Under the pieces are notes generated by a model. That model was given only the letters and a program-made list of their open reading frames with translations. It did no database searches and was not told the DNA's origin. Source: Bacteroidaceae bacterium (GTDB taxonomy: Bacteria > Bacteroidota > Bacteroidia > Bacteroidales > Bacteroidaceae). From it: a stretch of DNA of 50,311 bases. The DNA lies in the NCBI GenBank assembly GCA_017615245.1, contig JAGAAL010000027.1, positions 1-50,311 of the forward strand, in the 5' to 3' direction. Within the stretch, counting starts at the first letter, position 1. Every line of letters starts with the position of its first letter. Both the position numbers and the translations under genes were made by a program. Below, piece by piece: positions 5 to 34,767 of the stretch.

Positions 5-517
5 ATGAAGAAGATTATATTAACACTTTGTATCGCCCTCGTAGCTGTAGCTGGCGCACAAGCTCAGGACAGCAAGAAAAGCAAGAAGGACAAAGATAAT
101 AAGTCGGAGATGAACGCTCAGGACGTGTATAAGCAGCAGGCTGAATCATGGGCATCTACGTTCGAACTCGACGACGAAACCAAAGCTAAATTCATCGACC
201 TCTATGTGGAATGGCAGAACAACCGCGGCAACATAGTTGACAAGAACGGTTATGAACAGAAAGCCGGTGAAGACATCAACTTCAAGAAAATCACCGCTGA
301 AGAAGCCGAGAAACTCATTGCCGACGACTTTGAGCGTCAGAAAAAGCAGGCAGAAACCGATGAGGAATACTACCGCAAATTCATGCAGTACCTCACTCCA
401 GGTCGTGCAGCACAGATGGTGATTCAGCAACGTAGTTCTGCAGCAGGCATATCAAACATGTTCCGCCGTGGTATGGGTGGCATGGGAGGTATGGGCGGCA
501 TGATGATGATGTTCTAA
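5..517 (+). CDS. Secreted protein with Gly/Met-rich tail, function unknown
   Basis: This encodes 170 residues starting with a typical Sec signal peptide (MKK, hydrophobic core, AQAQ cleavage region near residue 20). A Lys/Asp/Glu-rich charged stretch follows, then a mostly helical, acidic body. The last 18 residues are almost only Gly and Met (GMGG repeats, then MMMM, final Phe). The helical charged body with an exported N-terminus loosely recalls small periplasmic Spy/LTXXQ or DUF4890-like proteins, but I see no decisive motif and assign no function. The Met-rich tail could bind soft metals; that is speculation. The gene starts four bases into the window, so its promoter is not visible. A strong terminator follows about 30 nt after the stop, so it probably ends its transcription unit. 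Confidence 0.8.
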   Translation: MKKIILTLCIALVAVAGAQAQDSKKSKKDKDNKSEMNAQDVYKQQAESWASTFELDDETKAKFIDLYVEWQNNRGNIVDKNGYEQKAGEDINFKKITAEEAEKLIADDFERQKKQAETDEEYYRKFMQYLTPGRAAQMVIQQRSSAAGISNMFRRGMGGMGGMGGMMMMF

Positions 518-30798: not shown

Positions 30799-31069
30799 CT
30801 GATTTTCACTTCTTATACAACAAAAGCAACGCTTCCGCCAACTGGCGGAAACGCTCCAGAAACAAAAGCAACGCTTCCGCCAAGGAGCGGAAACACTTCC
30901 GGGACGAATGTAACGCTTCCGCCAAGTGGCGGAAACGCTCCAGGGACAAAAGTAATGCTTCCGCCAGGTGGCGGAAATGCTCCGGGACAAAAGCAACGTT
31001 TCCGCCAAGGAGCGGAAACGCTCCAGGGACAAAAGTAACGCATCCGACAAGTAGCGGAAACGCTTCATG
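30799..31069. repeat. Array of six 42-bp hairpin units with conserved leader
   Basis: A 22-nt leader (30799-30820) is followed by six tandem units starting at 30820, 30862, 30904, 30946, 30987 and 31029 (41-42 bp each). Each contains TTCCGC-6 nt-GCGGAA or a near match, so each can form a hairpin or cruciform. Unit centres vary (CAACTG, CAAGGA, CAAGTG, CAGGTG, ACAAGTA-like) while the arms stay paired. The same leader and two diverged units recur at 32826-32929. Confidence 0.9.
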
Positions 31070-31218: not shown

Positions 31219-32679
31219 ATGAAAAAGAACATTACAATTACCATCCTCCTTGCCCTGCTACTTTCGTTCTCATGCAGCAAAGAAGGCAACGATGAAGAGG
31301 ATGACAAGAATCTGCCTGTTACTACAATGGCGGAGGGCTATTACACCATCCCTACAAGCAAAGAAGGCATTGACCAAACGTTTGTAAGAATGGGCATTAA
31401 GGACATCACGAACATAAAGAACCGATGGTGTGCTTTTGTCGGCGACTCAGTAACCATACTGACAGGAACCAAATATCCCGAAGAAGCCCAATGGTCGTAT
31501 ATTCAAGTTTATGTCTATGTCAATGGCGAGGAACGAGTGAGGGAGGGATTCTTGCAACCGGCTGGCTCAACGGCTAAATTGGTAAAAGAGAAAGCTCTGT
31601 TCTCGTATAAAGGAACAATCTTTATTCCGATGCAGATGGGAGACAGTGAGATGCTCATGGGATTGGGAGCAGATGGCCTCAACTCTTTTAAGGGTGCGAC
31701 CTTCTTCGATTATATTTGGGATGAAGACCTTGACTTGATGGTTTACCATGACCGTAACGGACAGTATTATGTTGAAAACATATTTGGGAGCAATGCTGTC
31801 AAGTTCTTGCCCGAATATAAAGACAATGTGCCCATCGGGTGGCAGTACGGGACATGGAACTCACTTGGTGGTGAGACTGATTTTGAGCAAGACGGGAAAA
31901 TCGTATTCCGTGCTGAAAGTGTGAGCTATAGCGAACCCTATGCATCCTATACAATACACCTGACTCATGAAGCCATGAAAGAACTGGAACTGAACGGCGG
32001 AAAGACGAAACGGAAATATTGGCACATATCCAACAGGGGAGCAAAACCTGCAAGTTATGAATTCGTAGTGGAGTATCCAAATGGACATGAATACAGAATG
32101 GCGTTGAAAACAAATACTTTTGGTGCCCCCCGATTTTATGGGGATGTCATCGTCAGTTATCAAGGGAGCAGTTATTCCACCACACCTGAATACTCAACAC
32201 TACCCTGCCGTTTTGCCACAACATATTTCCAACTGTGGGCTGAGAATAATCCATTTGGAAAGTTCTCTCTTGTGACCTTACAAGAGGGTACTGATGGAAA
32301 GGAGCTACGTTTCACAAGCAGTTATCTGCCAAGGGAGAGCTATCCGGCAGAGTCTGGTTATGACTATCTGCTGGGGCAGAACAACAGTCTTATTTTCGGC
32401 TTCTCCAACTTGTTCGCGAACGTGAACCAGAAGCCTGAACTCGAAGACTACCTTCCCTTTTATTATCTTCTCATCTACGACGGCTCATGTCCAAACTGCA
32501 CTACTACTCGTTTAGATTTGGACTTTGATGAGAGTATCGCCCGATGCAGTAATTGCCAGAGATGGTATGACATGAACAATTACGGCACAATCATACGAGG
32601 CAACGATGGCAAAGCATTAATAAGATATCCTGCAACATATAACGAACATCTTATTCGATTGGAAGTAAGAAATGAATAA
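31219..32679 (+). CDS. Lipoprotein with C-terminal Rieske-like four-cysteine domain
   Basis: This 486-residue protein has a lipoprotein signal (LLSFSCS, Cys 19) and an acidic linker that suggests surface or periplasmic display. Residues about 35-415 form a large beta-rich region with no motif I recognise. The final 65 residues carry CPNC (424-427) and CSNC (443-446), then WYDMNNYG and a Gly-rich turn. The spacing C..C-15-C..C followed by YD...G and a terminal beta-hairpin is the layout of a Rieske-like fold, but with four cysteines in place of the two Cys and two His of a [2Fe-2S] Rieske centre. A zinc or iron site is plausible. It is monocistronic between two repeat arrays. Confidence 0.75.
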   Translation: MKKNITITILLALLLSFSCSKEGNDEEDDKNLPVTTMAEGYYTIPTSKEGIDQTFVRMGIKDITNIKNRWCAFVGDSVTILTGTKYPEEAQWSYIQVYVYVNGEERVREGFLQPAGSTAKLVKEKALFSYKGTIFIPMQMGDSEMLMGLGADGLNSFKGATFFDYIWDEDLDLMVYHDRNGQYYVENIFGSNAVKFLPEYKDNVPIGWQYGTWNSLGGETDFEQDGKIVFRAESVSYSEPYASYTIHLTHEAMKELELNGGKTKRKYWHISNRGAKPASYEFVVEYPNGHEYRMALKTNTFGAPRFYGDVIVSYQGSSYSTTPEYSTLPCRFATTYFQLWAENNPFGKFSLVTLQEGTDGKELRFTSSYLPRESYPAESGYDYLLGQNNSLIFGFSNLFANVNQKPELEDYLPFYYLLIYDGSCPNCTTTRLDLDFDESIARCSNCQRWYDMNNYGTIIRGNDGKALIRYPATYNEHLIRLEVRNE

Positions 32680-32825: not shown

Positions 32826-32929
32826 CTGATTTTCACTTCTTATACAAGAAAGCAATGCTCCCGACCTGGGTCGGAAATGCTTCGGGGAAGAAAGAAGCGT
32901 TTCCGACTTTGGGCGGGAATGCAGTGGGA
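32826..32929. repeat. Second, diverged copy of the leader and 42-bp hairpin array
   Basis: The 22-nt leader (32826-32847) is identical to that at 30799-30820. Two units follow (32847-32888 and 32889-32929). In the first, the arm CCGAC pairs with GTCGG, whereas the other array has CCGCC with GGCGG. Both sides changed together, which keeps the hairpin. Confidence 0.85.
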
Positions 32930-32984
32930 AATAAGTGGAAGCGGCAACATAATAATTTGTTCCACCCATTGGACCACGAACGGC

Positions 32985-33005
32985 AAATGCAAACAAAATG
33001 CAAAG
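32985..33005 (+). promoter_or_regulatory. 21-bp operator-like element, copy 1
   Basis: The sequence contains the direct repeat ATGCAAA twice (AAATGCAAAC, AAAATGCAAAG). It is identical over 21 bp to 34161-34181 and ends 7 nt before the -33 box in both cases. The position just upstream of -33 suits an activator site. Confidence 0.7.
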
Positions 33006-33012
33006 TCGGATG

Positions 33013-33044
33013 TTTGGCGGGGTGAGGGAAATTGTGTATCTTTG
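33013..33044 (+). promoter_or_regulatory. Promoter of the membrane-bound HTH regulator gene
   Basis: A -33 TTTG (33013-33016) and -7 TATCTTTG (33037-33044) are separated by 20 nt. The in-frame codon at 33032 lies inside the promoter, so translation begins at 33065 or 33071. Confidence 0.8.
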
Positions 33045-33064
33045 CAGGCAAATTAAAAAATCGA

Positions 33065-34090
33065 ATGGCTATGACGAAGAAATGGTTGATAGTTTTGGCG
33101 ACGCTGCTGTTCGTGGGATGCGGACAGGAGGAAAGCGAGTATGTGATGCAGGGGGTGTGGACGTTGCAGTTCAGGGAATACCCGGGTGGCAAGCGGTCGG
33201 ACATCACGTCGGACGACGAGGGGGCGCATGGGCTTATCTATGACGGCGACAGCACGTTGTACGTGTGCCGACTGATACGGACACCTTCGGGGTTGGTCAT
33301 GACGCCGATGGAACGGGGGAATGTGACGGTGGTGAACAAGGGCGGCGGCGAGTTCCTGTATTTGGAGGAAGGCAATCCGCGTCCGCTGACGATGATTGAT
33401 GACACGACGATGACCATTCAGCGCAATGGGGTGAAGTACGGCTACCATCGGGCAGAGGACATCTGGCGGGAATGGGGCGACGACATGCGCGACATCGTGG
33501 CAGGCGATACGTCGACAATGGACAAAGAGCCTACGAACTATGTGTTTTCGGCCAAGGAACGGGAGCAGGCGAGCACCATCAACTGGCTGGCGTTCATCCT
33601 TGTGGCTGCAGGGCTGGGCATCGTTGTCGTCGTGAACCTGCTGATCAATACGAACAGAAGCCGCCGGAGGTTGCTGGCTCAGTTGCAGCAGATTCGCGAG
33701 GAGCATGAGGAGCGTCCGCAGACGGTGAAGATGGCGATGCGGAATGTGGAGGAGGAGTTCTTTGCTTCGGATGAGTACATCGGGCTGCACCAGCGCATCA
33801 CCTGTGGGGAACGGCTGACGAACGAGGACTGGACGGAGATGGAGGAACGGCTGAAGCGGGTGTATCCGGGTTTCACCAGCCGACTGAGGAACCTGTATCC
33901 GATGTCGGAACTGGAGTATCAAGTGTGCCTGCTGATAAAACTGCGCATCACGCCGACGGAGATGGCGGATGTGCTGTCGCGCGACGGAAGCACCATCAGC
34001 ACCGTGCGCAGCCGCCTATACAAAAAGGTTTTCGGCAGCAAAGGTGGGGCACGCGACTGGGACGAATTCGTGCTGAGCATCGGAGCGTGA
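33065..34090 (+). CDS. Predicted membrane-anchored transcriptional regulator: lipoprotein signal, one TM helix, C-terminal HTH
   Basis: From ATG 33065 the protein has 341 residues. An N-terminal signal with lipobox LFVGC (Cys 19) is followed by an exported domain of about 140 residues that starts QGVWTLQFRE, a lipocalin-like GxW strand. One membrane helix (about 172-194) is followed by positive charges (RSRRR, 199-202 region), which puts the C-terminus in the cytoplasm. A helical linker leads to a HTH (about 281-323; SELEYQVCLLIKLRITPTEM, then STISTVRSRLYKKVFG), like the LuxR/sigma-4-type HTH at the end of Bacteroidetes TPR regulators. It would sense something outside and act on DNA directly. 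Its promoter and that of the next gene share a 21-bp element, a likely target. Confidence 0.78.
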   Translation: MAMTKKWLIVLATLLFVGCGQEESEYVMQGVWTLQFREYPGGKRSDITSDDEGAHGLIYDGDSTLYVCRLIRTPSGLVMTPMERGNVTVVNKGGGEFLYLEEGNPRPLTMIDDTTMTIQRNGVKYGYHRAEDIWREWGDDMRDIVAGDTSTMDKEPTNYVFSAKEREQASTINWLAFILVAAGLGIVVVVNLLINTNRSRRRLLAQLQQIREEHEERPQTVKMAMRNVEEEFFASDEYIGLHQRITCGERLTNEDWTEMEERLKRVYPGFTSRLRNLYPMSELEYQVCLLIKLRITPTEMADVLSRDGSTISTVRSRLYKKVFGSKGGARDWDEFVLSIGA

Positions 34091-34138
34091 GAACAATGTA
34101 ACAATGTAAAAATTAAAAAATGTAAGTTATAGGGAATA

Positions 34139-34181
34139 GTTTGCAAACTGTTTGCATCGAAAATGCAAACAAAATGCAAAG
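34139..34181 (+). promoter_or_regulatory. Operator-like region, copy 2, with extra inverted repeats
   Basis: The 21-bp element (34161-34181) identical to 32985-33005 is preceded here by more TTTGCA/TGCAAA sites: the palindrome GTTTGCAAAC and TTTGCAT...ATGCAAA as an inverted repeat around TCGAAA. The 7-nt gap to the -33 box is the same as in copy 1. Confidence 0.7.
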
Positions 34182-34188
34182 TAAAATG

Positions 34189-34220
34189 TTTGGTGGCTCA
34201 GGAAAAAGGCCGTACCTTTG
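34189..34220 (+). promoter_or_regulatory. Promoter of the secreted lipocalin-like gene
   Basis: A -33 TTTG (34189-34192) inside ATGTTTGG and a -7 TACCTTTG (34213-34220) are separated by 20 nt. ATGTTTGG is shared with the regulator promoter. Confidence 0.8.
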
Positions 34221-34275
34221 CAGCGGTTTTATTAATTATTGATTTTCTAACCCTTAACAAAAAAACTGTAAACTT

Positions 34276-34767
34276 ATGAAGAAAGGAATGTTCATGATGG
34301 CAGTGGTGCTCATGAGTGCCCTCCATGTAAATGCCCAAACGAAAGTGGACGACAAGGAAATCGTAGGCGTGTGGATGATGGAGTCCATGCAATTCGAAGG
34401 CGAGAAGAAAATCGTGTGCGGCAAGGCGAATGGCTACACGCAGTTTAAGTTCTACGGCACCGACGGCGAATATGCTTCAGCGGGCATCACTTTGACAAAA
34501 GATGGCAAGATTGTGGTGATGCCGCAAGAATATGGCAAGTATTCTTTGAAAGATGGCTGGTACATGGAAATGGGACGCAAACCATTGAAAGATGCCGTCA
34601 TTCTGACAGACAAGAACACATACAAAGGTACGTGGCAGAATCGCCACGATATCTGGAAGAAGATTTCCGTCCCGGAAAAGGTCAGGAAGTACATTGTTGA
34701 CTGCTGCAAGATGCAGGAAACGCCATCCGACATCGAGCAGAGCATCAAGCAGACGATGTTTAAATGA
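34276..34767 (+). CDS. Secreted lipocalin-like protein
   Basis: This 163-residue protein has a Sec signal peptide (MKKGMFMMAVVLMSALHVNAQ). The mature part opens with EIVGVWMMESMQF, the G-x-W start of calycin/lipocalin-like small exported proteins, and continues with about eight short beta-strands, ending in a helical segment with two adjacent Cys (DCCK). It resembles DUF4488-type proteins of Bacteroidetes, though I cannot confirm the family. It lies directly behind the membrane-bound regulator but has its own promoter with the same 21-bp element. It may bind a ligand or stress-generated molecule and report to the regulator, whose exported domain starts with a similar GVW strand; this is inference. 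Confidence 0.72.
   Translation: MKKGMFMMAVVLMSALHVNAQTKVDDKEIVGVWMMESMQFEGEKKIVCGKANGYTQFKFYGTDGEYASAGITLTKDGKIVVMPQEYGKYSLKDGWYMEMGRKPLKDAVILTDKNTYKGTWQNRHDIWKKISVPEKVRKYIVDCCKMQETPSDIEQSIKQTMFK

Follow-up and report, generated by a model that had tools for sequence, protein, structure and literature searches.

The window analysed here, a 50,311-nucleotide stretch of a Bacteroidaceae bacterium (contig JAGAAL010000027.1, assembly GCA_017615245.1), carries on its forward strand a gene for a predicted membrane-spanning transcription regulator, followed by a gene for a small secreted protein, the partner. Both genes are preceded by the same repeat. The coding features are:

33065..34090, + strand: regulator gene, 341 aa plus stop (translation of the open reading frame)
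33065..33121, + strand: lipoprotein signal peptide, with lipobox Cys19 at 33119-33121 (alignment of homologues)
33137..33460, + strand: predicted lipocalin-like sensor domain, residues 25-132 (barrel homology, AlphaFold, fold match)
33578..33646, + strand: predicted transmembrane helix, about residues 172-194, within predicted helix 163-215 (hydropathy, AlphaFold)
33866..34087, + strand: LuxR/GerE-type helix-turn-helix (HTH), residues 268-341 (predicted fold)
34276..34767, + strand: secreted lipocalin-like partner, 163 aa plus stop; signal peptide 1-20, barrel about 27-130, C-terminal helices 134-145 and 151-161

The regulator frame agrees with the original prediction of a 341-residue lipobox protein, and a second Met at 33071 offers an alternative start. 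The lipobox is present in all 71 regulators of the homologue alignment A2, by column in 70, with the misaligned row L129 reading LLSAC; an earlier set had it in 32 of 32. The lipocalin-like exported domain opening with a GVW strand was borne out by the AlphaFold model (mean pLDDT 88.6), in which ten strand segments, three of them 3 residues long, cross residues 30-129, followed by helix 163-215 and further helices up to 338. Hydropathy places the single claimed membrane helix in window 176-194 (mean 2.82, against 1.59 for the signal peptide and a maximum of 1.03 in residues 26-149 or beyond 200). The charges, KK at the N-terminus and NRSRRR after the helix, follow the expected positive-inside pattern and are consistent with a barrel outside and an HTH inside; together with the lipobox they speak against a cytoplasmic N-terminus. 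The C-terminal HTH, as proposed, is present and takes a predicted GerE fold; the GerE profile was not matched in Pfam and NCBIfam at E up to 1. These features describe what is predicted to be a single-pass membrane transcription factor with an exported domain.

The next gene had been described as secreted and lipocalin-like, and both properties hold. Its signal peptide ends VNA/Q, Q21 being invariant across 72 sequences, and its model contains 8 strand segments in the same lipocalin-like fold as the regulator sensor (structure prediction and match; comparison made with VIA-align). Both predicted barrels open with a G-x-W strand and have 4qrl as top structural match, which speaks against unrelated folds for the exported parts. 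By sequence, the partner matches the lipocalin-like GH43_C below cut-off (E 7.7e-4), and a search of the PDB with both proteins returned nothing credible. The conserved cysteines of its exported part are C48 (70/72), C68 (66/72, Ser in the window protein) and C144 (72/72); C68 of the regulator, conserved in 63/71 homologues, aligns with partner C68 in the barrel tree alignment.

Linkage and kinship of the two genes

Linkage was followed in the best 80 of 351 relatives in a contig collection, the comparison genomes being incomplete bins. The partner lies downstream on the same strand in 78 of the 80 loci, and in the other two the contig ends 179 and 212 nt past the regulator. The gap between the genes is 123-245 nt in 71 of the 78, shorter in three and longer in four (343-2429 nt); the intervening sequence holds BlaI-like and M56-like genes at L095 and an extra copy of the partner at L153. 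Every other neighbour cluster is confined to 14 or fewer of the 80 loci. This conserved neighbourhood, for which the original prediction had proposed a search across relatives, rules out an orphan pair of one genome, and by such linkage regulator and partner are best regarded as a unit.

A wider survey covered 201 genomes of the family, scoring the best 18 or fewer partner-profile candidates per genome. Among the matches listed, a same-strand partner lies within 2.6 kb of 37 of 64 regulator rows (HTH-only rows, the sensor-only frames in G128 and G204 and a G154 fragment omitted), and a regulator is near 38 of 43 tabulated partner rows. These 43 were drawn from 58, leaving out 10 matches on regulators' own sensors, fragments (G096, G001 twice, G110) and a weak match in G180; G001 and G180 have no tabulated regulator. 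The 27 partnerless regulator rows are group-B members (defined below), long-branch members, contig-end rows or, in G053, a case of reversed order. Among 295 genomes of the order, with the best 12 or fewer candidates scored per genome, the partner profile matched in just two others, which share a genus outside the family. The host bins belong to Prevotellaceae/Bacteroidaceae, and most of those with a named source come from ruminant gut.

Kinship between the two barrels was examined by profile and tree. The regulator alignment A2 holds 70 of 77 offered rows plus the window's own (L077, L103, L110, L114, L126, L140 and L147 omitted by hand), and the partner alignment A3 71 of 75 plus the window's own (L110, L126, L140 and L145 omitted); both also skip L092 and L124, with ambiguous starts, and L097 and L109, with partial or frame-broken partners. 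Regulators of the window's own type are called group A. Group B comprises 22 regulators in 20 loci, several of them near-copies, which were chosen for having no adjacent partner match and are thus partnerless by selection; on inspection none of the 22 has a partner. In barrel-only profile-profile comparison, group-A and group-B sensors match at E 2.5e-22 and partners match group-B sensors at E 2e-18. The scores of 60 column-shuffled controls never exceeded 19.2, while the weakest true barrel pair scored 35.2. Whole-protein hhalign of partner against regulator gave E 1.3e-4 (probability 53). By these measures the sensor and partner barrels are homologous.

The tree of 83 barrels (106 columns, unrooted) drew on 25 of the 71 rows of A2 and 25 of the 72 of A3 (the window's and 24 random rows each), 22 group-B sensors and 11 barrels from other loci. 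All 30 partners fall in one clade (support 99/95), 30 of 31 group-A sensors stand together, and so do 20 of 22 group-B sensors, with support of just 90/84. The long-branch rows L017 sensor, L271 and L272 are misplaced, breaking otherwise clean groups, and were excluded from the profile-profile and identity comparisons. Partners are closer to group-B sensors than to those of their own regulators, both in mean identity (0.239 versus 0.159) and in shared conserved columns (15/47 versus 8/47), and group-B regulators hit the partner profile with E values from 1e-18 to 2e-8. Duplication of the barrel followed by specialisation would be the simplest reading of these sequences.

Several neighbours deserve mention as observations in their own right. 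An M56/BlaR1-like protein and a BlaI-like repressor lie beside the pair at L087, L090, L095, L105, L114 and L126 (clusters in 14/80 and 12/80 loci), the L087 pair showing M56, TonB_C and Penicillinase_R domains. A GLPGLI-type gene comes next after the partner at L086, L098, L100 and L103, with the family confirmed for two. In the window itself, 30820-31064 is a tandem array of about six 42-bp units, seemingly containing inverted repeats, which by eye a stretch at about 32850-32960, before the regulator, resembles. A putative 486-aa lipoprotein at 31219-32679 has no Pfam match at E up to 1 and, among 76 loci compared, is present in the window's own only.

Predicted operator repeats and their targets

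The non-coding features, all predicted from sequence, are:

32985..33006, + strand: regulator operator, AAATGCAAACAAAATGCAAAGT; half-sites TGCAAA at 32988-32993 and 32999-33004, 11-bp period
33013..33044, + strand: regulator promoter, -33 TTTG at 33013-33016 and -7 TATCTTTG at 33037-33044 (pattern match 32988-33044)
34140..34180, + strand: partner operator, a 41-bp palindrome; TTTGCA at 34140-34145 and 34151-34156, 7-bp spacer, TGCAAA at 34164-34169 and 34175-34180
34189..34220, + strand: partner promoter, -33 TTTG at 34189-34192 and -7 TACCTTTG at 34213-34220 (sequence, pattern match)

The -33/-7 boxes before the regulator are taken, by consensus, to be a promoter of Bacteroidota type. The original prediction had the two genes share promoter architecture; this stands for the common core promoter but understated the likeness, as the operator is shared as well. 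The 22-bp sequence AAATGCAAACAAAATGCAAAGT is identical at 32985-33006 and 34161-34182 and, allowing up to 3 mismatches, occurs in the source genome (62% complete) only at regulator and partner, where shuffling predicts 0.01 chance matches. Across the 80 loci, an exact TGCAAA-N5-TGCAAA precedes the regulator in 70 of 80 cases and the partner in 62 of 78; with one mismatch allowed, these counts rise to 77 and 74. No other period from 7 to 16 gave more than one exact match, shuffles averaged 0.05 and 0, and 317 other upstream regions held 0 exact matches and 6 with one mismatch. Shuffling and conservation together rule out chance similarity of the promoters. The geometry is equally constant: the first half-site is 49 bases from the TAnnTTTG box in 70 of the 74 partner promoters, and among the 77 regulator promoters this distance is 49 or 50 in 73. 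Further upstream, 52 of the 74 partner promoters have an inverted pair (up to 2 mismatches), 43 of them with the 7-bp spacer, versus 5 of the 77 regulator promoters.

Could the repeats belong to another transcription factor, their linkage to the pair being accidental? Of 19 regions lying downstream of longer paralogues with a shared HTH, 2 do have a perfect repeat of another half-site. However, sites track the presence of the regulator, and half-sites vary by regulator group (TGCAAA, TGCCAA, TGTAAA, TGCAAG-like), which makes this explanation very improbable. In group B, a period-11 repeat lies 48-51 bases before the -7 box downstream of 20 of 22 regulators (other periods 0-1 of 22; control regions 14/311), and before the regulator itself in just 1 of 22. 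Since these loci have no partner, the repeats are tied to regulator and target, not to the partner, and we infer that they form the operator of this regulator's HTH. Their fixed position just upstream of the -33 box suggests activation. That the regulator is instead a repressor released by signal is improbable: autoregulation is compatible with repression too, but the half-sites lie upstream of -33 at fixed distance, without overlapping the core promoter.

The exact operator-plus-promoter pattern has 11 matches in 17 genomes of the genus, 10 of them at the regulator-partner pair, and 52 in the 201 family genomes, of which 35 mark the promoter of a regulator or a partner (reversed control 0). 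An extra target in G030, G077, G094 and G126 is a DUF4369/thioredoxin-like gene (Pfam run on the G124 homologue), and in relatives the predicted regulon is wider than the pair. Of the genes downstream of group-B regulators, three of three scanned against Pfam are thioredoxin-like and others look outer-membrane-like by eye; with the conserved cysteines, the thioredoxin-like genes give hints of thiol chemistry. The lipobox is missing, by eye, in about half of the 22 group-B proteins.

Other repeats were noted in passing. At L220, L221 and L251 in G110, three large proteins of outer-membrane type (by eye) lie behind the repeat, L221 with one mismatch and the other two with the exact promoter pattern; the L220 protein opens with a partner-like signal peptide. 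An exact operator stands ahead of a sigma-factor-like gene (by eye) at L246 in G126. At L210-L216 (G004, G012, G016), repeats of the same geometry with half-site TGTAAA precede other genes, mostly with exported-looking products; a TGTAAA site also lies downstream of the longer HTH paralogue L021, and L210-L216 may be a paralogue's regulon.

A candidate envelope-sensing circuit

The proposed one-component envelope-to-DNA relay with a partner is supported by anatomy, predicted folds, barrel homology, gene linkage and the repeats with their geometry, all established by sequence or computation. The favoured model, which we consider probable, has an activator that senses the envelope and turns on the gene for a secreted protein paralogous to its sensor barrel, with feedback. 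The regulator would be a one-component membrane-spanning transcription regulator, its lipidated N-terminus and lipocalin-like barrel in the periplasm, a single helix through the inner membrane and a LuxR-type HTH acting in the cytoplasm. The barrel would read a ligand or the state of the envelope, altering the pairing of HTHs, and paired HTHs would bind the half-sites, which stand in tandem at 11-bp spacing immediately ahead of the -33 box. Regulator and partner would be made together, activation extending to the regulator's own gene (two half-sites) and probably being stronger at the partner gene, where the palindrome doubles the number of half-sites. As a main output of the circuit, the partner, a paralogue of the barrel that is secreted in free form, most likely recognises the same type of ligand, and by acting on it within the envelope it would also damp the signal; any contact between sensor and partner is likewise conjectural.

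Is the partner an effector, an input or both? A pure effector that does not feed back on the regulator, such as a scavenger or a potempin E-like protease inhibitor, would fit an induced secreted protein; on this rather unlikely reading, no reason is apparent for an effector paralogous to the sensor and not unrelated to it. A VtrA/VtrC-like co-component, in which the partner is the obligate ligand input docking on a regulator barrel that has lost its own ligand site, is possible but less favoured. Close to it, and similarly tentative, is an independently evolved Bacteroidota co-component class convergent with ToxR/ToxS, in which the barrel was duplicated, one copy secreted as ligand-binding input and the original kept as docking site, while relatives retain the one-protein form. 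The group-B loci show that the chassis need not come with a separate partner. Both co-component readings are lowered slightly by G127 and G166, where a partner-like sensor co-occurs with a partner. Effector with feedback heads the ranking for two reasons: the same chassis seems to drive effector genes in relatives of the regulator, and an outer-membrane barrel gene follows the partner by 15-21 nt in 5 of 75 loci.

Several observations weigh against this model. In Pfam and NCBIfam both window proteins stay below every family cut-off, and partners match group-A sensors, the window's own type, only at E 8.6e-6. The source genome is incomplete, and the locus set includes near-identical species, so its counts are not independent. 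Even at up to 2 mismatches the repeat is absent before the regulator in L092 and L132 and before the partner in L121, L152 and L153. Of the 52 family-wide matches, 17 fall at other sites, including 3 in genomes for which no regulator is tabulated; the bare repeat has 18 matches in the genus (17 genomes), of which 6 are not at the pair (control 4), and allowing two mismatches in 25 genomes brings many further sites with 3 control matches.

Comparison with known systems

The regulator belongs with the Bacteroidota lipobox-TM-HTH regulators (TM, transmembrane helix) of tetratricopeptide repeat (TPR) type, near Pfam DUF6377, as a variant with a different sensor. The TM-linker-HTH half is homologous, matches running from residues 169-251 to 335-339 in frames of about 400-680 aa. 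Those relatives have a longer sensor, with TPR repeats and DUF6377 each below cut-off in 3 of 7 scanned, whereas the regulator here has a predicted barrel of about 110 residues and no TPR sensor. The lipid anchor, originally regarded as a special feature, is rejected as the novelty: among the matches listed, 13 of 15 longer HTH-sharing paralogues have a lipobox-like Cys. For Bacteroidota membrane regulators of this class we know of no described operator site, no literature search having been devoted to this question by itself; a predicted code, made up of the half-site, a period of 11 bp and a distance of about 49 bases to the -7 box, would supply one.

The fold of both barrels is that of BACUNI_01346 (4qrl) and potempin E (8ehc), at 11-15% identity; these are not regulator parts in those entries. 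In BlaR1/MecR1, the sensor domain is homologous to the kind of effector which the system induces, a parallel to the present pair, but BlaR1 signals by proteolysis of a separate repressor. No title or abstract describing the regulator-partner system was found in the open-access literature. Transmembrane transcription regulators exert one-component control from the inner membrane and are enriched in Bacteroidota; within the available part of that account, no type is described that combines a lipocalin sensor with a partner paralogous to it (Demey et al. 2023, PMC10269533).

The closest functional parallel may be the co-component systems VtrA/VtrC and ToxR/ToxS, likewise two-gene cassettes, in which a membrane-spanning transcription factor is paired with a neighbouring gene whose exported product is lipocalin-like (Kinch et al. 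2022, PMC9214523); the term "Bacteroid..." is absent from that paper. The HTH here is C-terminal and of LuxR type, whereas VtrA and ToxR have an N-terminal CadC/ToxR-type HTH and a C-terminal periplasmic domain, and the exported domain is a predicted lipocalin-like barrel homologous to the partner, in place of the alpha-beta domain of VtrA (PMC9214523). Because of these differences in HTH position and type and in exported fold, the pair is not filed as a member. Also unlike those systems, the partner has a cleavable-looking signal peptide, no further membrane helix and its own operator, and the genes do not overlap. By analogy, the cassette may nonetheless work much like ToxR/ToxS and VtrA/VtrC, and with the same sensor available in both a one-gene and a two-gene version, the origin of co-component from one-component signalling becomes directly testable.
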